Below, in pieces: positions 5,844 to 14,844 of a stretch of 64,000 nt of DNA. The notes under the pieces were generated by a model. The model was not told the DNA's origin. It made no database searches and saw only the letters and a program-made list of their open reading frames with translations. How positions within the stretch are numbered: position 1 is the first letter of the stretch; the number at the start of each line of letters is the position of its first letter. The stretch comes from an uncultured Lachnospiraceae bacterium (lineage in GTDB: Bacteria; Bacillota; Clostridia; Lachnospirales; Lachnospiraceae), in assembly GCA_902789735.1 (NCBI GenBank), contig CADAOZ010000008.1, positions 124,001 through 188,000 of the forward strand, read 5' to 3'. Made by a program: the position numbers and the translations under genes.

Positions 5844-6069
5844 TGAACCGGGAAGTCTGACGCATGGTTCATTTGTGAACCGGCAAGTCTGACGCATGGT
5901 TCATGCATCTGAACCGGGAAGTCTGACGACTGGTTCATTTCCGGACAGGAAAAAATACGTTATTAGTATAGCAGTATTTTTTCTGCCGTCAATGATGAAC
6001 CACAAAGTCTGACGCCTGGTTCATGTGAACCGGGAAGTCTGACGCCTGGTTCACCTGACGCCTGGTTCA
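5844..6069 (-). repeat. Cluster of five and a half 28-bp palindromic repeats
   Basis: Copies lie at 5844-5871, 5876-5903, 5910-5937, 5996-6023 and 6026-6053, plus a right half at 6056-6069. In minus-strand sense each is TGAACC, 2-3 variable bases, CGTCAGACTT, 3 variable bases, GGTTCA. The arms are inverted repeats and the ten-base core is identical in all copies. Three copies fall in the purB leader. The others lie between its promoter and the end of the upstream gene, whose TGA stop is inside the half copy. This fills the 291-base gap between the genes. Confidence 0.92.
5965..5992 (-). promoter_or_regulatory. SigA promoter of purB-purA
   Basis: TTGACG (5987-5992) and TATACT (5965-5970) on the minus strand, 16-base spacer. 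The promoter sits in the only long gap between repeat copies, so the palindromes flank it on both sides. Confidence 0.75.
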
Positions 6070-6909
6070 CCCTATGGTCGGCAGGTTGGTCTCCCGGAAG
6101 CGGTCACGCAGTTCTCCGGCCTTGAGGTCCAGGAGGCTCTGCAGTTCTTCTGTGCGGCCTTCCCGCAGGTACTGTTTCATTTTGCGTATGGTCCTGCCTT
6201 CGCTGCCGGCCCTGCAGGCAGCCTGCGCCTGTTCGATCCCCTGCCGTACCAGCAGGGCATGATCGTAGAGCTCGGGATGTTCGCCGATGTAATCGTCCCA
6301 TTCCTCCTGGGACGTGACCATGCGCAGGGCTGCCAGATAGCACTTGCCGCTGTGGCGGTCATGGGTCAGCTTCCAGGCCCGGTAATAGCAGTCAGAAGCT
6401 TTGCGGAAGCTGAACTGGCCGGCATAAAGCCTGCCTTTCTGCTGCCAGACCCGGGACCGCATTTCCCTTTCCAGCTCCGGAAGCGCTGCCAGGACGCCGT
6501 CCAGCTCCGACTGGGCCTGGCCGATCCTTCCCTGACCGGCGGAATATTCCGCCCTGGCCAGCAGCTGCCGGTAGGGCTCCATGCCTTCACTCTCTTCCAT
6601 TTCCCGCCGGATCTCCTTCTGACGGGCCGGAGTCTGGAAGGCTGCATACTCCAGAATGACCATGACGAATTCCACATAGGCGTTTTTGCGGTCCAGCCAG
6701 GGCCTGAGCTTCGCGGCCAGTTCCGTCAGTCCGCATTCCGAACCCAGCCAGATGACCAGATCCGGATCCCGGATGCTGTCATCCAGCAGCTGGGCGCACT
6801 GGGCCAGGGAATAACAGAGTTCTTCAATGGTATAAACTTTGCGTTCTATCTTTTCGATCAGGTAGGGAGTCCTTGCCATCCTGCCCATCGTCAGTATCAG
6901 TCTGCTCAT
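6067..6909 (-). CDS. Small helical (TPR-like) protein of the DUF5716/DUF5717 cassette
   Basis: A protein of 280 residues with no named function. The N-terminus (MSRLILTMGRMARTPYLIEK) has the pattern I associate with a conserved Lachnospiraceae hypothetical protein found beside DUF5716/DUF5717 genes; that memory cannot be checked here. Residues about 110-220 are helix-rich with a TPR-like rhythm (ARAEYSAGQGRIGQAQSELDG, GRLYAGQFSFRKASDCYYRA). There is no signal peptide or membrane segment, so it is cytoplasmic. The start is placed at the ATG overlapping the previous gene by ATGA, which implies coupled translation. Its stop codon lies inside a repeat unit. Confidence 0.7.
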   Translation of the reverse strand: MSRLILTMGRMARTPYLIEKIERKVYTIEELCYSLAQCAQLLDDSIRDPDLVIWLGSECGLTELAAKLRPWLDRKNAYVEFVMVILEYAAFQTPARQKEIRREMEESEGMEPYRQLLARAEYSAGQGRIGQAQSELDGVLAALPELEREMRSRVWQQKGRLYAGQFSFRKASDCYYRAWKLTHDRHSGKCYLAALRMVTSQEEWDDYIGEHPELYDHALLVRQGIEQAQAACRAGSEGRTIRKMKQYLREGRTEELQSLLDLKAGELRDRFRETNLPTIG

Positions 6910-8201
6910 ATGACATTTACCTCCCCGGTCCACTGCTGTCCCGATGAAGGGAAAATAGCGCCGAATCCCAGATCCTCCACCCGGTAGCTGACCGCTTCCG
7001 CCCTGTCCATGGTCAGGGTCAGGCGGATTCTGGTCGTACCGGGCGGCCGCTCGGGAAGTCCCCGCAGCAGGATGGTCTCCGTCCGCCTGCCTCCGCCATT
7101 GAGGGGCGTCAGCACCAGTTCGATCTCATTGCCCGATTCCAGCAGGAATTCCTCCGACAGGACCGCGTCATACCACTTGGTCCCCGCGTCCAGCAGGGCA
7201 TGGTAGCAGTCCTTTCCGGCCCGGACAGCTTCCACACCTATATTCATCCGCAGGCAGTCCTCGGCAAGGTAGAAATAGTCCCCCAGGCCTTTGACCATAC
7301 CGCTTTTGAACAGAGCCCCGAAGGCGGCGCCTCTGCTGTAGAGATTGCCCCCCTGGAAGACCCGTCTGCCCTGGCCGATAAAACGCAGGGATTCCTGCAT
7401 CCATCTGCCTTTAAAGCCGTCGCCGATCAGATAGACCGCGGCGCCCCCTGCCCCGAAATCCATCTGCCGCAGGGCGTCCAGCAGCTGCCGGTCCCGGACT
7501 GCGGCGGACGCGCCGGGCGTCAGCTCGAAATGCCGGATCCTGGGCATGCTGATGGCGGGTTTTGTCTTATAGTTAAAAATCAGTTCTCCCAGCAGCAGGT
7601 CGCTGCCGCCGTCATTTTCACAGAGGATGACCCCCAGTCTGCGCTGCTGCTCCTGCTGGGCAAGGACATAATCAAAAAGGCATTCCATATGTCCCTGGTA
7701 AGAGATGTTCTCCACCGGCAGCTGCAGGCGTTCCAGCACCCCGTCCAGGGCTTCCACGATCTGACGGTCCGGACTGGGGACCGTAAAAACGATACTTTCA
7801 ATATCCTCCGGATCCACCTGTGCCGACAGCAGCTGCAGGCAGCGGCGCAGATAGACGGAAAGCAGGGTCACAGGGTCGCAGTCCTCCTCTCCGATCCTGA
7901 CCGTCTCTCCCAGCGCCGCCAGACGCAGCAGACCGGTCACAGGCTCCGTGCCCCGGGCCGCCGCGAAGGCCATGGCTTCCCTGCCGGTCAGCCACCTGCC
8001 GTCCTCTCCCCTGCAGATACAGGCGGGTATATTGTAGTCCTCCCGGCCCGCAGTCATGGAAAAGGTCACCGGGTCCCAGGTCCTCCTGCCGGTCGGCGTC
8101 ATGCGGAGCCGGTCTTTGGAAATCCAGGAAATCTGGCAGAATTTCTCCTGCAGATCAATGCCCAGATAGTATTTTTTTTCCTGCTTCTTCTTCAGTAACA
8201 T
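6906..8201 (-). CDS. Hsp70/actin-fold-like protein (DUF5716 type)
   Basis: Cytoplasmic protein of 431 residues. It has degenerate versions of the Hsp70/actin ATPase motifs in the right order: phosphate-1 GIDLQEKFCQIS (14-25), a TVPSPDRQ segment like Hsp70 TVPAYF (140-147), phosphate-2 ENDGGSDLLLGE (195-206), an adenosine-like YLIGDGFKG (257-265) and a GAAFGA helix (291-296). The last 95 residues read like a beta-rich Hsp70 substrate-binding domain without its lid. I recall the family as Pfam DUF5716, function unknown. It shares an operon with two helical proteins. ATP binding and a chaperone-like role are inference. GGAGAG precedes the ATG. Confidence 0.75.
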   Translation of the reverse strand: MLLKKKQEKKYYLGIDLQEKFCQISWISKDRLRMTPTGRRTWDPVTFSMTAGREDYNIPACICRGEDGRWLTGREAMAFAAARGTEPVTGLLRLAALGETVRIGEEDCDPVTLLSVYLRRCLQLLSAQVDPEDIESIVFTVPSPDRQIVEALDGVLERLQLPVENISYQGHMECLFDYVLAQQEQQRRLGVILCENDGGSDLLLGELIFNYKTKPAISMPRIRHFELTPGASAAVRDRQLLDALRQMDFGAGGAAVYLIGDGFKGRWMQESLRFIGQGRRVFQGGNLYSRGAAFGALFKSGMVKGLGDYFYLAEDCLRMNIGVEAVRAGKDCYHALLDAGTKWYDAVLSEEFLLESGNEIELVLTPLNGGGRRTETILLRGLPERPPGTTRIRLTLTMDRAEAVSYRVEDLGFGAIFPSSGQQWTGEVNVI

Positions 8202-8228
8202 GTATTTCTCTCCGGCTGTTCTTCCGTT

Positions 8229-8331
8229 CTGTATACTGTTGGATCCTGTATCCTGTCGGATTCTATATATTGTTGGATCCTGTCTCCTATCGGATTCTAT
8301 ATATTGTTGGATCCTGTCTCCTGCCAGATTC
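8229..8331. repeat. 34-bp tandem repeat, about 2.7 copies plus a fragment
   Basis: Units start at 8239, 8273 and 8307 with TTGGATCCTGT and end in TCTATATATTG; a partial unit lies before the first. They occupy nearly the whole gap between the DUF5717-like and DUF5716-like genes, and the stop codon of the former falls at the edge of the third unit. Confidence 0.9.
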
Positions 8332-11300
8332 AGCGGTCAAACAGCTCTCTGATCATGTAATCGGTCATATAGCAGCGGCGCAGGTGGTCGATGGCAGCCG
8401 CACAGTCGCCCTGCTGCAGGCTCCGGCTCATCCTGTCGATCAGGCCGAACCGGTCGACCGAAACCGTCTCAGGCTGGCTGCCCTGCCCCAGGGTCCCCTG
8501 CTCGGTAACGTGCTCCTCGCGGGGATCGTCCGTAATGAAATAGTTGATCTTTTCCCCGCAGAACAGCAGGAAAGAGGCTACATAATAGCCCGGATACATC
8601 TGCTTCATACGGCGGGAGGCAAAGGTCCCGCGGTCCGCGTTCTCCCGCAGGGAATAGTGGACCACGATATTGCGCGAGGCATTCCCGGCGGCTTCCGGAT
8701 CATGATAACTCAGCAGGGTCTCTCTGGCGAAGGCCTCGATCCTGCTGTCCAGGTCCGTCAGATGCCGGTAGAAGGGGAAAATCAGCTCCTGATCCAGCAG
8801 ACCCCGGATATAGGCAGCGGCCGTCTCACGCCTGCTGCCGGTCAGTTCCTCCTCCCGGGCCGCTTTCCGCAGCCAGACGATCCTGCATACCGGTGCCGGA
8901 TCGGGAATCTTTTCAATCAGGCCGCAGAGGGCATCTCCCGGATCGGTCTCGCGGATGAACAGACTGCCGCAGTATCTTTCCAGCAATTCCCTGACCGTAT
9001 CCGGCCTGGCTCTGTCATCCGAAGCATAGCGGACAAGAAGCGCCTCTTCGCCGTCAATGATCTGACCGGTAAAGTGGATCTGCTCACAGATCCGTTCGGT
9101 CAGGTCCCGGGTATCCATACCCTCCCGGTCCATGGCCCGGCGGATCTCTTCCAGCTCCGCGGACAGGCCCACAAAGAAACGGGATGCGTAGCGGAGCACC
9201 TTTTCACTGCGCGATCCGGACCGGAATGCTTCATGGCAGAATTCGCCCAGTATGGGATCGCGCCGGTCCGGATAGGCCTGGGCCGCGCTCTGGCAGATCC
9301 GCCACAGGGTCTCCTCCGCCACAGCGCCGGTTCCGCAGCGCTTCAGCAGGCGCAGGGCTTCCTCCGGTCTGCAGACACTGCAGAAGTGCAGGAAGGAGGA
9401 CCGGCTGCTGCCCTGCAGCATGGAATCATCCATGGCCCGCAGGACTTTTTCCATCTCGTAGCGGCGGCCCTGTTCCTCATAGAGGGCCAGGACGGAAAAC
9501 AGGATCTTACCCCTGTAGGCCGCGTGTATATCCCTGGCAGAAGCCAGGGCCGAAGCCGCATCCTCGGAAAGGGCGGTCACCCGGGGCTCTTCTCCCCGGA
9601 TCCCGGCCCGCAGCATGACAAACCGGGGATCGGTCGTGGAAATACCGGCCGGCAGATTCTCAATGATCTCCTCCGGCAGTTGCTCCGTGATCTGGTCCCT
9701 GCCGACGACAGCCCTGCTGCCCCTGCGGTCAGAGGCGAACAGACGGACTTCATCTCCGTAAAGGGGAAGGCGGCAGAGGCCGGACCGGACCGGCCAGGTC
9801 TCTTCTTTGCGAAAATGGTCATATATGACCGTCAGGCTTTCCGCGTCCGGCAGGGCCGGCCTGACCAGACAGGTAAACAGGGCCGGCACCAGACCTTCCG
9901 TGGAAGGCCGGATCTCAGAGTCCTCCAGCGAGGCCCGGCAGAGAAAAACTACATTGTCCGTTATACGGCCGCCCGCGATCTGCTCCTCCAGGAATGCCCG
10001 GATCTTAGGTTTGGTCCGCATATAGAGGCCTTCCAGCCTTTCTTTTCTTTCATAAATATAACGGTAAAGGAAACCTTTCCGCTCATAGCCCAGGATGGCC
10101 TGGTCGGTGATCTCCGACAAGGCCCGGGGCGGGATCTCTCCCGTAAAGTCGGCCGGCATGGAATTCATATAAAATTCATGCAGATGCGGCAGCTTGAGCG
10201 GAATTTCCTCCGCCCGGGCAAAACAGGAAAAATAAGCGGGGTCCGTGATATCCTCCCGGATCAGCAGGCTGCAGATCCGGCGCAGTATCTCCTCTTTCAT
10301 GGGAGAGAGGGCGGGGATATCCATGGCTTTGATCAGGATCCCGGCCAGCATGGGCGAGAATCCCCTGGAAGTGTCCACCATATAGAGGACCTGTTCCATG
10401 ACCCCCGGGGTCATGATCCCCCAGCGGACGGCGTAATGCAGGATCTGGAACAGATAGGTCCCGTTCTGTTTCCTGGGCGAACGGTAGCTGTCTTTCTCAA
10501 AAATGAGGGAGGGATTGGCCGCGATCATCTCCCAGGCCTCCAGATACATGACAGAGCCGCGGCTGCCCCGCTCATACTGCCTGCGCATGAATTCCCAGCG
10601 GGCTCCCGAATGGCCGCTGTATTCCGGCGCCAGTTCCATATACATCCAGGCGATCCGCCAGTTGCCTTCATTGCGGCGCAGACGCTCCCGGACCAGACGG
10701 GCCACTCTGGGCGTAATGATATGTCCGTCCTTATAGCAGAGGGCCGTCAGATACTGGCGGTAGCAGTAGAGCTCATCATCTTCATATTTATACTGCTGGT
10801 AGTTCATTTCCATGACTTCCGAAGCAGGTACGCCGGCCAGGCGTTTGCGCAGCAGATCCAGCCCTTCGGCTGCGGCCCGGCTGCGGTCCATGGCCAGCTG
10901 CAGGTGGATCTGGTACAGATCCGCCAGGATAGATCCCTGCTCAGCGGACCGCAGGCTGCTGATCAGGTGCCTGGCTTTGGCAAAGCAGACCTCCCTGTCC
11001 GTTCTGCCGGCCGCGGTCTCCTCGTAGCATCGCAGAAGTCCTGCTACGGCCCGGTCTCTGGCCCGGTTCCTGCGGACTGCGTGATCGGACCGGCGGTGGT
11101 AACGGATCCGCACCGGAATGATCCGGGTCTGCTCCGGAGAACGCAGGATGATCCGGGCATAGTTCCAGCCTGCATGGAGTCTTGTATCATCGATCCGGAC
11201 CCGGATAGAAGCGGCATTGCCTTCAAAATCCTCTGCAGACAGGGACGCGGGCACCAGCGTCAGATAGTCGCAGTCTGTTTCTGCCGTGATCTTTGTATAC

Positions 11301-11941
11301 CCCCAGCCGGACCGGAGGATCCCGATCTCATAAGCAGGATGCCGGACCCTGGCCTGATAGCCCGGGCCGAAGATCTCCGTCTCGATCCCGCTGATTTCTG
11401 TCTCAAAAGTAACAGGCGCCTTGCCGCAGGCCTGGACCAGAAAGGATTCCATATTGCGGCTGCTCCCCCGGTCTCTGGACAGACCGGCGTACAAAGCCCT
11501 GTCCGCGTCCGTCCGCAGAATGTCCGTAAAAGCCCGGCTGTAATAAAAGGCGAGGGCGGCGTCCCAATCGTCTTCCGCCATGGCCGGGAACCCATCTTTA
11601 TCCATGATCTGCTCACTCATGGATTCACTGACCGGCGCGGAGACCAGGACATGGTACGGTATGCTGTATTCCCCGTGGTCTGTGATCAGGCGGAAGCTCC
11701 CATCCACCACATCGCCGTCTTCAAAGCCGGCCGCGTCAAAGCGCCAGGGGAACATGCCCGTCCGGCTGCCGATCCTGGCCTCGCTGCATTCCATTCCCAC
11801 GCCCGAAGCCCGGACCACGCCCTCAAAGGCCTGGCCCAGGGGCTGCCGTACTTCAATATAGCCGTCCACCACCTGTCCGGGTGCCAGCATCAGATTCAGT
11901 TCATTGACTGAAAAAACCAGTCCGTTCATAGTCTGTTCCAT
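8330..11941 (-). CDS. Large solenoid-like protein (DUF5717 type)
   Basis: A very large protein of about 1204 residues and unknown function. Residues 1-100 and about 180-280 look like two beta-sandwich (Ig-like) domains, the second with a run such as DYLTLVPASLSAEDFEG and LHAGWNYARIIL. Residues about 290-1080 are almost wholly helical with repeat-like pairs, suggesting an alpha-solenoid scaffold. A short beta segment and a helical end follow. I recall Pfam DUF5717_N/DUF5717 for such proteins. No signal peptide or membrane helix is seen. The ATG at 11941 is preferred to a TTG 14 codons earlier. It is the first gene of the cassette. Confidence 0.75.
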   Translation of the reverse strand: MEQTMNGLVFSVNELNLMLAPGQVVDGYIEVRQPLGQAFEGVVRASGVGMECSEARIGSRTGMFPWRFDAAGFEDGDVVDGSFRLITDHGEYSIPYHVLVSAPVSESMSEQIMDKDGFPAMAEDDWDAALAFYYSRAFTDILRTDADRALYAGLSRDRGSSRNMESFLVQACGKAPVTFETEISGIETEIFGPGYQARVRHPAYEIGILRSGWGYTKITAETDCDYLTLVPASLSAEDFEGNAASIRVRIDDTRLHAGWNYARIILRSPEQTRIIPVRIRYHRRSDHAVRRNRARDRAVAGLLRCYEETAAGRTDREVCFAKARHLISSLRSAEQGSILADLYQIHLQLAMDRSRAAAEGLDLLRKRLAGVPASEVMEMNYQQYKYEDDELYCYRQYLTALCYKDGHIITPRVARLVRERLRRNEGNWRIAWMYMELAPEYSGHSGARWEFMRRQYERGSRGSVMYLEAWEMIAANPSLIFEKDSYRSPRKQNGTYLFQILHYAVRWGIMTPGVMEQVLYMVDTSRGFSPMLAGILIKAMDIPALSPMKEEILRRICSLLIREDITDPAYFSCFARAEEIPLKLPHLHEFYMNSMPADFTGEIPPRALSEITDQAILGYERKGFLYRYIYERKERLEGLYMRTKPKIRAFLEEQIAGGRITDNVVFLCRASLEDSEIRPSTEGLVPALFTCLVRPALPDAESLTVIYDHFRKEETWPVRSGLCRLPLYGDEVRLFASDRRGSRAVVGRDQITEQLPEEIIENLPAGISTTDPRFVMLRAGIRGEEPRVTALSEDAASALASARDIHAAYRGKILFSVLALYEEQGRRYEMEKVLRAMDDSMLQGSSRSSFLHFCSVCRPEEALRLLKRCGTGAVAEETLWRICQSAAQAYPDRRDPILGEFCHEAFRSGSRSEKVLRYASRFFVGLSAELEEIRRAMDREGMDTRDLTERICEQIHFTGQIIDGEEALLVRYASDDRARPDTVRELLERYCGSLFIRETDPGDALCGLIEKIPDPAPVCRIVWLRKAAREEELTGSRRETAAAYIRGLLDQELIFPFYRHLTDLDSRIEAFARETLLSYHDPEAAGNASRNIVVHYSLRENADRGTFASRRMKQMYPGYYVASFLLFCGEKINYFITDDPREEHVTEQGTLGQGSQPETVSVDRFGLIDRMSRSLQQGDCAAAIDHLRRCYMTDYMIRELFDR

Positions 11942-12310: not shown

Positions 12311-14524
12311 TTATTCCGCGTCTGTCTCCGCTTCTGCGGGCTCTTCCGCTGCTGCAGATTCTTCCGCTTCTGCGGGCTCTTCCGTTGCTGCAGATTCTTC
12401 CGCTTCTGCAGGCTCTTCCGTTGCTGCAGATTCTTCCGCTTCTGCAGGCTCTTCCGCCTGCGCGGCATCTTTGGCCAGCATCAGCATGATGTCGTTGGAC
12501 CTCTGGATGAAGCGGCTCATGTCGTCCGCAGACAGGGGAGCGTTCTGGATCTGGGCCAGATCATAGAGCTGCTGGCAGATCAGTTTGGCGTCTTTACCCT
12601 CCTGGTGGTCCAGCAGATAGCTGACCAGGGGGTGTTTGGCGTTCAGGATCAGGGTCTGGCCTTCCTTGCCGAAACCGTCCATGCCAAAGCCCATGCCCTG
12701 AGCCGCATACATCTTCATCATATCAGCCATACGGCGGCTCTGTTCGTCTACGGTCAGGATGGAAGCGGTCTTCTTATCCTTGAGATTCTCCAGACGTACT
12801 GTCAGCTTGTCATTCTTCACGGCCTTTTTGATTGTTTTGGCCAGCTGTTCCTCCTGTTCGCGGAGAGCCGCAGCGGCCTTCTTGCCGGTACGGGCCTTGA
12901 GAGCGTCCTGGATGTCCGCATCGATCCTGGCGAAATGGATGCCTTCATTCTTGGCTTCCAGCTGCTGGATGAAGGGCTGGTCAATGTTATCCCGGAGGAT
13001 AAAGGCCTGCATCTTCTGGGCCCGGAACATCTTGATGTACTGGCTCTGCTGCTGTTCGTCGGTCACGTAGTAGATGGTGCGGTCCTGTTTGGGTTCTTCC
13101 GCCTTCTCCTCTTCCACGACCTCAGCCTCGACCTTTTCGCCGTTCTCATCTACGGCTTCCTCTTCTTCCACGTCGGTCTTATTGACTTCCAGCGCTTCGG
13201 GCAGGGTCAGGAACTTGCCGTCCAGATCCTTGAAGAGGATATAGTCGGTCATCTTCTTGCAGAACTTGTCGTCGCGCAGGCAGCCGTACTTGATGAAGGG
13301 ACTGATGTCGTCCCAGTACTTGTCGTAGTTCTCCTTATCGGTCTTGCACATGCCGGACAGCTTGTCCGCCACCTTCTTGGTAATATAATCGGAAATCTTG
13401 GTGACAAAACCGTCGTTCTGCAGGGCGCTTCTGGAAACGTTCAGGGGCAGGTCAGGGCAGTCAATGGCGCCCTTGAGCAGCATCAGGAATTCCGGAATGA
13501 CTTCCTTGATGTTATCCGCGATAAATACCTGGTTGTTATACAGCTTGATCACGCCCTCGGCGGATTCATATTCCAGGTTGATCTTGGGGAAGTAAAGGAT
13601 ACCCTTGAGATTGAAGGGATAGTCCATGTTCAGGTGGATCCAGAACAGGGGCTCCTTATAATCCTTGAAGACCTTTCTGTAGAATTCCTTGTACTCTTCG
13701 TCGGTGCAGTCTTTGGGATTCTTGGCCCAGAGGGGATGGATCTCGTTCATCAGGGCCGGGCGCTTGCGGATCTTCAGCTGCTTTTCCTGCTCTTCCGGCT
13801 GCTCTTCGCCTTCCTTCTTTTTGGGCTCGATCACTTCGATTACGACATCTTCCGGCTTTCTCTCAGACTCCTTAATCGTCTCGGTCATGGAAGTATTCAG
13901 CTCGGACAGATAAATCTCAACAGGCATGAAGGAACAGTACTTCTCGATGACTTCCTGGGCCCGCCAGTAGTTGGCGAATTCCTTGCAGTCATCTGACAGA
14001 TACAGGGTCACGACCGTACCCACATCTTTCCTGTCACTGGTATCCAGGGTGAACTCGCTGCCGCCGTCACATTCCCAGTGCACAGCCTGCGCGCCGTCCT
14101 GATAGGACAGGGTATCGATGGTCACTTTGTCCGCGACCATGAATGCGGAATAAAATCCCAGACCGAAATGTCCGATGATCTGGTCTCCGGTAGCCTTGTC
14201 CTTGTATTTTTCCAGGAACGCCTCCGCGCCGGAAAACGCGATATTATTGATGTATTCCTTGACCTCATCTCCGGTCATGCCAAGGCCGTTATCACAGACC
14301 TGGATAATCTTTTCCGCAGGGTCGACGATGATATCGATCCGTGCCTTATAATCTTCCGGCAGTTCATAATCACCGATCACATCCAGCTTTTTCAGCTTGG
14401 TGATCGCGTCGCAGCCGTTGGAGACCAGCTCTCTCAAAAAGATATCATGGTCTGAATAGAGCCACTTCTTGATGATCGGAAACATATTTTCACTGTTGAT
14501 TGATAATGATCCTCTTTCTGCCAT
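12311..14524 (-). CDS. htpG: Chaperone protein HtpG (Hsp90) with acidic repeat tail
   Basis: ATP-dependent Hsp90 chaperone. The GHKL ATPase motifs are clear: ELVSNGCDA (32-40), DNGLGM (78-83) and GHFGLGF (118-124). At 737 residues it is about 50-110 longer than most bacterial HtpG. The excess is an acidic insertion near residues 445-485 (EEEEAVDENGEKVEAEVVEE) and a C-terminal tail of about 50 residues built from a 12-residue unit EEPAEAEESAAT. That tail is encoded by 36-bp tandem repeats at 12331-12456. AAAGGAG precedes the ATG. A CIRCE element upstream indicates HrcA control. Confidence 0.96.
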   Translation of the reverse strand: MAERGSLSINSENMFPIIKKWLYSDHDIFLRELVSNGCDAITKLKKLDVIGDYELPEDYKARIDIIVDPAEKIIQVCDNGLGMTGDEVKEYINNIAFSGAEAFLEKYKDKATGDQIIGHFGLGFYSAFMVADKVTIDTLSYQDGAQAVHWECDGGSEFTLDTSDRKDVGTVVTLYLSDDCKEFANYWRAQEVIEKYCSFMPVEIYLSELNTSMTETIKESERKPEDVVIEVIEPKKKEGEEQPEEQEKQLKIRKRPALMNEIHPLWAKNPKDCTDEEYKEFYRKVFKDYKEPLFWIHLNMDYPFNLKGILYFPKINLEYESAEGVIKLYNNQVFIADNIKEVIPEFLMLLKGAIDCPDLPLNVSRSALQNDGFVTKISDYITKKVADKLSGMCKTDKENYDKYWDDISPFIKYGCLRDDKFCKKMTDYILFKDLDGKFLTLPEALEVNKTDVEEEEAVDENGEKVEAEVVEEEKAEEPKQDRTIYYVTDEQQQSQYIKMFRAQKMQAFILRDNIDQPFIQQLEAKNEGIHFARIDADIQDALKARTGKKAAAALREQEEQLAKTIKKAVKNDKLTVRLENLKDKKTASILTVDEQSRRMADMMKMYAAQGMGFGMDGFGKEGQTLILNAKHPLVSYLLDHQEGKDAKLICQQLYDLAQIQNAPLSADDMSRFIQRSNDIMLMLAKDAAQAEEPAEAEESAATEEPAEAEESAATEEPAEAEESAAAEEPAEAETDAE
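12331..12456 (-). repeat. 36-bp coding tandem repeat in the htpG tail
   Basis: Units begin at 12331, 12367, 12403 and 12439 with CTTCTGC(G/A)GGCTCTTCCG and keep the frame (12 codons each). Near-identity of the copies indicates recent expansion, so copy number may vary between strains. Confidence 0.92.
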
Positions 14525-14817: not shown

Positions 14818-14844
14818 TTAGCACTCACTTGAAGCGAGTGCTAA
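14818..14844 (-). promoter_or_regulatory. CIRCE element (HrcA operator)
   Basis: TTAGCACTC, nine bases, GAGTGCTAA: a perfect CIRCE inverted repeat. HrcA binds this to repress class I heat-shock genes. The upstream gene ends at 14897 on the same strand, so htpG is the only obvious target. Confidence 0.96.

Follow-up and report, generated by a model that had tools for sequence, protein, structure and literature searches.

An Hsp70-fold protein without its main ATPase residues in a gene set conserved across Lachnospiraceae

What does an Hsp70 do once it has lost residues for ATP hydrolysis, and why should nearly every member of a bacterial family keep one? The question is raised by three neighbouring genes in a 64,000-nucleotide stretch of DNA from an uncultured Lachnospiraceae bacterium (assembly GCA_902789735.1, contig CADAOZ010000008.1, positions 124,001 to 188,000 of the forward strand), here called the window. 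They encode P1204, a large putative scaffold, P431, a lidless Hsp70-fold protein, and P280, a helical protein (Table 1). Lachnospiraceae are a dominant family of the mammalian gut, and the gene set is nearly universal among them, yet its two larger proteins appear in Pfam only as families of unknown function, DUF5717 for P1204 and DUF5716 for P431. A preliminary description, made from the letters alone, had proposed a chaperone-like machine in which an ATP-driven Hsp70-type subunit works with a large scaffold. The three genes lie on the minus strand as it placed them, and the ATGA overlap of P431 and P280 is visible; the large protein, counted from the ATG at 11941, has 1203 residues and not 1204.

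On balance, the evidence tilts towards a core Lachnospiraceae machine built on an Hsp70 that no longer hydrolyses ATP, lacks the lid and a large part of lobe IIB, and would serve as a permanent scaffold and client-binding subunit. The machine would descend from an undescribed multi-chaperone cluster: next to a solenoid scaffold and a GrpE of its own, this encodes four Hsp70s, three of them intact (one with a von Willebrand factor A, VWA, domain) and one dead. Fold, residue losses, shortened IIB segment, shared ancestry, conservation and linkage were each established by computation.

An Hsp70 fold and the loss of ATPase residues

By its predicted fold P431 is an Hsp70, with an actin-like nucleotide-binding domain followed by the beta part of a substrate-binding domain (SBD-beta). 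The AlphaFold 2 (AF2) model, built from 53 aligned sequences, is that of a lidless Hsp70 (predicted local distance difference test, pLDDT, 90.1; predicted template modelling score, pTM, 0.84), and DSSP assigns eight long strands to its C-terminal region, with the helical lid (SBD-alpha) absent. A Foldseek search with the model gave 373 PDB matches at E≤0.001, the best 50 of which are all of the Hsp70 family (top E-value 1.2e-19, probability 1). They comprise chains of DnaK, Hsc70, BiP, Ssb, the yeast ribosome-associated complex (RAC), Sse1 and ciliary Hsp70, some belonging to Hsp70-bearing complexes, where their identification as the Hsp70 subunit is partly inferred. Nearly all of these 50 cover two domains, alignments to two-domain Hsp70 chains extending over 500-odd columns, and a cytoskeletal actin of the MreB or FtsA type was ruled out on the same best 50 of 373. 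At the sequence level, a profile of 22 P431-family members searched against PDB sequences found DnaK best (1.4e-5), and all 12 rows at E-values up to 1 were DnaK or BiP/GRP78. The Hsp70-type fold with a C-terminal beta domain, which the preliminary description had proposed, is thus borne out by model, structure search and profile search alike.

The catalytic residues D8, T11, K70, E171, D194 and T199 were scored by alignment to the genome's own DnaK. The set comprised 22 members of the family: those of the window, of loci L032 to L051 and of locus L066 (L and G numbers denote loci and genomes). T11, K70 and E171 are retained in none of the 22 (K70 being gapped in two), position 171 is histidine in 17, and T199 survives in a single member. 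D8 is retained in 19, and D194 is aspartate in 13 and glutamate in seven. The phosphate-1 remnant of P431, GIDLQEK, keeps its Asp while both Thr are gone, and in the adenosine motif, LIGDGF in the window, the first Gly (G260) is invariant (22/22) and the second missing throughout (0/22). Among the degenerate ATPase motifs listed in the preliminary description, ENDGGSD, at the phosphate-2 position, is unique to the window's P431 among the aligned sequences and has no conservation in the family.

The segment between D194 and the adenosine motif, which holds lobe IIB in DnaK, measures 59–77 residues in all 22 members, against 142 in DnaK and 138–151 in the B proteins of the larger cluster described below. 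The biggest gap in the alignment of the P431 and B profiles falls, independently, at the same site. Lobe IIB of Hsp70 is contacted by GrpE and helps to clamp the nucleotide. Judged from these sequences, P431 probably no longer runs an ATPase cycle and an ATP-driven role is unlikely; the ATP-driven subunit of the preliminary description was accordingly rejected on the absence of K70 and E171 from 22/22 members and of T199 from 21, together with the halving of the IIB segment.

Conservation, and a larger cluster in sister families

P431 matches DUF5716_C (7.6e-74), while P1204 matches DUF5717_N (PF18984; 1.7e-148) and DUF5717 (PF18983; 1.8e-49), all above the curated Pfam cut-offs (248.8 against 34.7, 496.4 against 25, and 169 against 25 bits); against NCBIfam the two proteins gave zero matches. 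The preliminary description had named these families as mainly of Lachnospiraceae, and their occurrence in Lachnospiraceae and the surrounding order is borne out. DUF5716 is found in 293 of 299 Lachnospiraceae genomes, mostly as one match each, which corresponds to 292/298 genera and, among genomes at least 90% complete and at most 5% contaminated, to 243/246. Both families are missing from three of the six negative genomes (G980, G1040 and G1164). The other three (G1046, G1074 and G1091) have DUF5717, which in two of them is fragmented and lies close to where a contig begins. Across the order, within which the DUF5716 search was made, 142 of 295 genomes are positive, 48 of these in Lachnospiraceae. 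Draws from the phylum (398 genomes) and class (291), searched with DUF5717 only, gave five and ten hits over the cut-off, all in Lachnospiraceae; a sub-cut-off match outside the order occurs in G792 (8e-5).

Gene order is equally constant. The order P1204-P431-P280 holds in 79 of 80 loci of relatives, including Butyrivibrio, Kineothrix and other Lachnospiraceae; these are the best 80 of 497, so that counts on them lean to the window's near relatives. It holds as well in 20/20 further Lachnospiraceae loci, each from another genus. The single exception, L149, carries transporter-like genes at the place of P1204. The two outcomes that would have spoken most directly against the preliminary description, a 431-residue protein without an actin fold and genes that are routinely unlinked, were looked for and neither was found. 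Compared with the nearest relative, L077 (an uncultured Lachnospiraceae bacterium whose P431 is 98% identical), the ratio of non-synonymous to synonymous substitution rates (dN/dS) is 0.047 for P431, 0.065 for P280 and 0.083 for P1204, values low enough to mark all three as maintained proteins.

In other families of the order the DUF5716 search retrieves proteins mostly of about 500–570 residues, often as neighbouring pairs, and it is here that the larger cluster, overlooked in the preliminary description, appears. Twenty non-Lachnospiraceae loci were fetched, and 12 hold the complete cluster with one and the same arrangement, interrupted in a few by an extra gene: a scaffold (one or two genes), Hsp70 A (~558 residues), a GrpE-domain protein (565–645), the Hsp70-like B (~518), Hsp70s C (~546) and D (~694), and a TPR (tetratricopeptide repeat) protein of ~390 residues. 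Only these 12, with four complete Hsp70 genes, entered the residue, length and tree counts. Left out were L052 (same order, D split), L057, L058 and L060 (contig ends), L059, L063 and L070 (partial or rearranged), and L066, which is reduced and Lachnospiraceae-like and comes from a genome with 5% contamination. Pfam annotation of L067, the one cluster scanned in full, gave DUF5717 for the scaffold, HSP70 for A (5e-76) and C (7e-63), a GrpE C-terminal match (3e-13), HSP70 (4.5e-96) with VWA (1.9e-10) for D, and TPR; its B protein (523 residues) matches both DUF5716_C (1.5e-26) and HSP70 (1.4e-17). The VWA domain of this D protein (L067:5897-7972), assigned by Pfam in L067 only, occupies the lid position, and a DTTGSM motif resembling a metal-ion-dependent adhesion site is present in the visible stretch of 10/12 counterparts.

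All six catalytic residues are present in A, C and D (12/12 each), while the B proteins keep K70 in 0/12, E171 in 1/12 and T199 in 0/12. A B profile, made from 11 of the 12 proteins, finds 124 PDB sequences at E≤0.001, the best 60 of them all Hsp70 or Hsp110, and it aligns with the P431 profile end to end (E 8e-47). The alignments used 53/81 rows for P431, 42/78 for P1204, 30/81 for P280, 11/12 for B and 11/12 for the TPR protein. A tree from a quick search has the form (C,(B,P)), where P stands for the P431 family, with SH-aLRT support of 100 for B+P, 98 for C, 91 for B and 100 for P. On this sequence evidence P431 is the ortholog of the dead Hsp70 B. Because the tree places the duplication of C and B before the split of B and P, the Lachnospiraceae gene very likely descends from one whose genome held C as well.

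GrpE occurs twice over the cut-off in 9/9 larger-cluster genomes and once in 14/14 Lachnospiraceae tested, G028 having a second match below the cut-off. The window's genome has one protein over PF00012, namely DnaK. Several Lachnospiraceae carry extra Hsp70s of about 500–600 residues unlinked to the locus (L180–L189), DnaK-like by profile. Relocated copies of A, C or D were ruled out for 13 such frames (12, some of them fragments, from eight Lachnospiraceae genomes and one from G024): all score best with DnaK, and none exceeds 277.1 bits with an A, C or D profile, where the profiles' own members, which served as yardstick, score 1043 or more. In the Lachnospiraceae loci read, A, C and D are shown to have gone from the locus. 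That they have gone from the genomes too is supported by the sequence comparisons, which did not extend to a systematic search of whole genomes with the three profiles. Apparently, Lachnospiraceae lost the intact Hsp70s and the cluster GrpE and retained the dead Hsp70, the scaffold and the TPR protein.

Partner proteins and the setting of the genes

P1204 appears, from its model, to be a long scaffold. AF2, run on 1199 of its 1203 residues, predicts a beta domain, a helical linker, a second beta domain, a long alpha-solenoid with a beta insertion, and a C-terminal alpha/beta region (mean pLDDT 81.7, pTM 0.51), which agrees, at low global confidence, with the two N-terminal beta domains and solenoid of the preliminary description. 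Foldseek matches are led by chains of the ciliary central apparatus (E 3e-6), followed by Ctr9 and SKI solenoid chains (E 2e-5), with TM-scores by query of 0.07–0.15. Searched alone, P280 has no Pfam family over the cut-off, TPR included. Its profile matches that of the ~390-residue TPR protein of the larger cluster (probability 99.4, E 6e-22, 177 columns), which suggests a TPR-type adaptor.

A fourth gene, likewise missed in the preliminary description, accompanies the set in 76/80 loci of relatives and directly follows P280 in 14/20 other loci of the family. Sequences read by eye show a protein of ~395 residues in which coiled-coil-like stretches flank two hydrophobic segments that look transmembrane; Pfam returns sub-threshold noise only, save for a fusion partner in L048. 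In that locus (L048:5863-8712) a single open frame joins the protein to one of the glutamyl-tRNA synthetase type (PF00749, 1e-103; PF19269, 1.8e-45). Several larger clusters (L157–L161, L163 and L164) are preceded by a gene for a protein of ~300–480 residues. Its N-terminus is hydrophobic and, in the sequences read, its tail resembles a coiled coil; it may correspond to the Lachnospiraceae fourth protein.

Table 1. Features of the gene set and its surroundings (window positions)
Feature	Position	Strand	Description and evidence
P1204	8330-11941	minus	DUF5717 scaffold (putative); Pfam PF18984 + PF18983, AF2, Foldseek, dN/dS
P431	6906-8201	minus	431 residues, DUF5716; lidless Hsp70-fold protein without main ATPase residues
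P280	6067-6909	minus	280 residues, helical TPR-related partner; ATGA overlap with P431
SBD-beta-like domain of P431, residues 309-429	6915-7277	minus	DSSP on AF2 model, Foldseek
Phosphate-1 loop remnant GIDLQEK in P431	8142-8162	minus	Alignment with DnaK and relatives
Adenosine-motif remnant LIGDGF in P431	7413-7430	minus	Family alignment
Terminator-like hairpin between htpG and P1204	12201-12234	minus	Fold energy against shuffles, U run
htpG (Hsp90)	12311-14524	minus	Pfam HSP90 1.3e-60; upstream neighbour, probably outside the unit
CIRCE (HrcA operator) upstream of htpG	14818-14844	not assigned	Consensus match

Upstream of the set lies htpG, and the preliminary description had placed the three genes directly downstream of an HrcA-regulated htpG. 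A CIRCE element (controlling inverted repeat of chaperone expression) does precede htpG, without mismatch to the consensus (one match, against a shuffle mean of 0.01). The direct succession is less secure, as a strong terminator-like hairpin intervenes (-19.1 kcal/mol, z -4.7, equalled by 0/200 shuffles). It leads into a run of six U, of which the fold prediction pairs the first two; a simple promoter and terminator scan gave no hit at this hairpin. Among the 79 relatives' loci with P1204, htpG lies within 1 kb of it in four, and it occurs anywhere in the locus in 28/80. The link is thus local, a single transcript of htpG and P1204 is not likely given the terminator, and co-regulation with htpG by HrcA is weakened by the hairpin and the rarity of adjacency. 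The purB gene adjoins the set in the window and is found somewhere in the locus in 58/80 relatives.

Three repeats were also seen. The spacer between P1204 and P431 (8202-8330) contains an imperfect tandem repeat of about 35 bp, AGGATCCAACAATATATAGAATCCG-like and in about three copies by eye, and in relatives the corresponding gap has a median of 30 bp (n=77). The C-terminus of HtpG (window 12311-12460) is a repetitive acidic tail of AEEPAEAEESAATEEP-type units. Beyond P280, at 5844-6053, stand five copies of a palindromic interspersed repeat, TGAACCNNGCGTCAGACTNNNNGGTTCA, with a half-match at 1695-1712; the window's genome holds 76 copies (39 forward and 37 reverse, at most two mismatches), often grouped in small clusters, and a reversed control pattern gave 0. 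It resembles an element of the REP (repetitive extragenic palindromic) or MITE (miniature inverted-repeat transposable element) type.

Proposed role and relation to known systems

The reading we favour, with evenly divided confidence, is that the gene set encodes a scaffolded, ATP-independent client-binding platform, as sequences and models suggest. By its model P431 keeps the two-domain core, a nucleotide-binding fold and a peptide-binding beta sandwich, and it would have given up the ATPase cycle. Together with P1204 and P280 it would form one complex, in which it may act as a scaffold subunit, comparable to Ssz1 in the yeast RAC, and hold or dock clients or partners constitutively with no ATP cycle. 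The fourth protein, where present, could act as a membrane tether, and folding work would be left to DnaK and HtpG. The set would derive from the larger cluster, its ATP-burning parts having been lost in Lachnospiraceae; that the cluster GrpE and much of IIB were lost together is as expected of a subunit freed from nucleotide exchange.

Several observations weigh against this proposal. The P1204 model is of low global confidence (pTM 0.51), and the P branch of the tree is long and drew long-branch warnings. The larger cluster is patchy, DUF5716 being present in only 142 of the 295 genomes of the order, and a gain of three Hsp70s and a GrpE outside Lachnospiraceae may be the alternative to their loss within the family. 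Extra Hsp70s elsewhere in several Lachnospiraceae genomes could serve as ATP-using partners, while D8 in 19/22 members and D or E at D194 in 20/22 are compatible with nucleotide binding without hydrolysis. No J-domain was found in P1204, P431, P280 or the seven proteins of the one larger cluster scanned, L067, unlike in RAC. Finally, the fourth gene is absent beside the window's genes, and its profile finds none in the window's genome (G000) or in its genus-mate G1201; with a genome in which it is undetectable, membrane tethering cannot be general.

The same conserved aspartates, together with the first adenosine-motif Gly (22/22), would suit a P431 that acts as a switch or sensor, binding nucleotide without hydrolysis, binding no client, and signalling its state to the scaffold and the coiled-coil membrane protein. 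The membrane-type fourth gene in 76/80 loci fits such a role, and client binding by the SBD groove is itself only predicted. We nevertheless regard the switch as unlikely, given that K70 and E171 are gone from every member and T199 from 21/22, that the IIB segment is halved in 22/22, and that the SBD-beta fold is kept in the model. Somewhat less likely again is a dedicated assembly factor for one envelope complex, in which the dead Hsp70 would recognise a single client on a membrane-anchored scaffold: the core distribution in Lachnospiraceae, the two apparent transmembrane segments of the fourth protein and the gene with a hydrophobic N-terminus and coiled-coil tail upstream of some larger clusters accord with it, and a window genome without detectable fourth gene does not.

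That the system belongs to conflict or defence, as a relative of the GAP1-N2 GTPase systems, strikes us as improbable. The case for it lies in the larger cluster, whose Hsp70s, GrpE, VWA, beta domains and TPR resemble the published GAP1-N2 theme (PMC7159879). Yet Pfam, in a scan that covered the cluster proteins, finds no GTPase among the seven of L067 or P1204, P431 and P280. PADLOC (E≤0.01) gives 0 families for P431, P1204, P280 and one fourth protein, its hits being confined to weak matches, in the Hsp70 part, of two L067 cluster Hsp70s (PDC-M61B, 8.7e-11 and 4.4e-7). Presence in 293/299 genomes, mostly once, is moreover the behaviour of a core gene, unlike a patchy defence island, and a defence system was set aside on the PADLOC-negative window proteins and this distribution. 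That P431 is a decaying remnant without function, as the loss of catalytic residues and half of the IIB segment might suggest, is scarcely credible; dN/dS of 0.047, the same 293/299 genomes and linkage in 79/80 loci contradict it.

The gene set offers, in our judgement, a rare bacterial case of an Hsp70 under strong purifying selection after the loss of its ATPase residues, and a natural experiment in that relatives retain intact paralogues. It makes testable both the use of an Hsp70 substrate-binding domain as a static subunit and what an assembly of four Hsp70s and a GrpE adds to the role of DnaK.

Among characterised proteins, Ssz1 of the RAC and Hsp110/Sse1 are the nearest in the proposed role, as atypical Hsp70s that act as partners in a complex. 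Chains of RAC entries, which we take to be Ssz1, stand at ranks 24, 34 and 47 of the Foldseek matches to P431, and Sse1 at 49. Ssz1 works without ATP hydrolysis. P431 differs in being bacterial, in its shortened IIB region and in that no J-protein partner was seen.

As to the literature, no description of the gene set was found among the matches listed, in a search whose coverage leaves most subscription journals and preprints outside. By family name, DUF5716 occurs in one unrelated paper (PMC8115291), and DUF5717 in none; in the main text of a survey of DnaK-type paralogues, "Lachnospir-" and "Clostridi-" have 0 occurrences (PMC11019930). The closest printed description found is the GAP1-N2 theme, which pairs HSP70, GrpE and FNIII fused to DnaJ or TPR, a subset having a second HSP70 without peptide-binding domain, while VWA appears in another theme of the same conflict-system paper (PMC7159879). 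The larger cluster shares the vocabulary of Hsp70, GrpE and beta domain plus TPR. It differs in that neither GTPase nor DnaJ was found in L067, the cluster scanned, and in the core rather than accessory distribution in Lachnospiraceae.

With Hsp70/DnaK itself (PF00012), P431 shares the two-domain fold and, through the B protein, a common ancestry. It is unlike DnaK in having no K70, E171 or lid, T199 in 1/22 members, a phosphate-2 motif that is not conserved and an IIB segment reduced by half, and in the window's genome PF00012 lists the DnaK frame only. DUF5716 and DUF5717, unnamed families in Pfam, would on this evidence take their places as the Hsp70-derived and scaffold subunits of one system.

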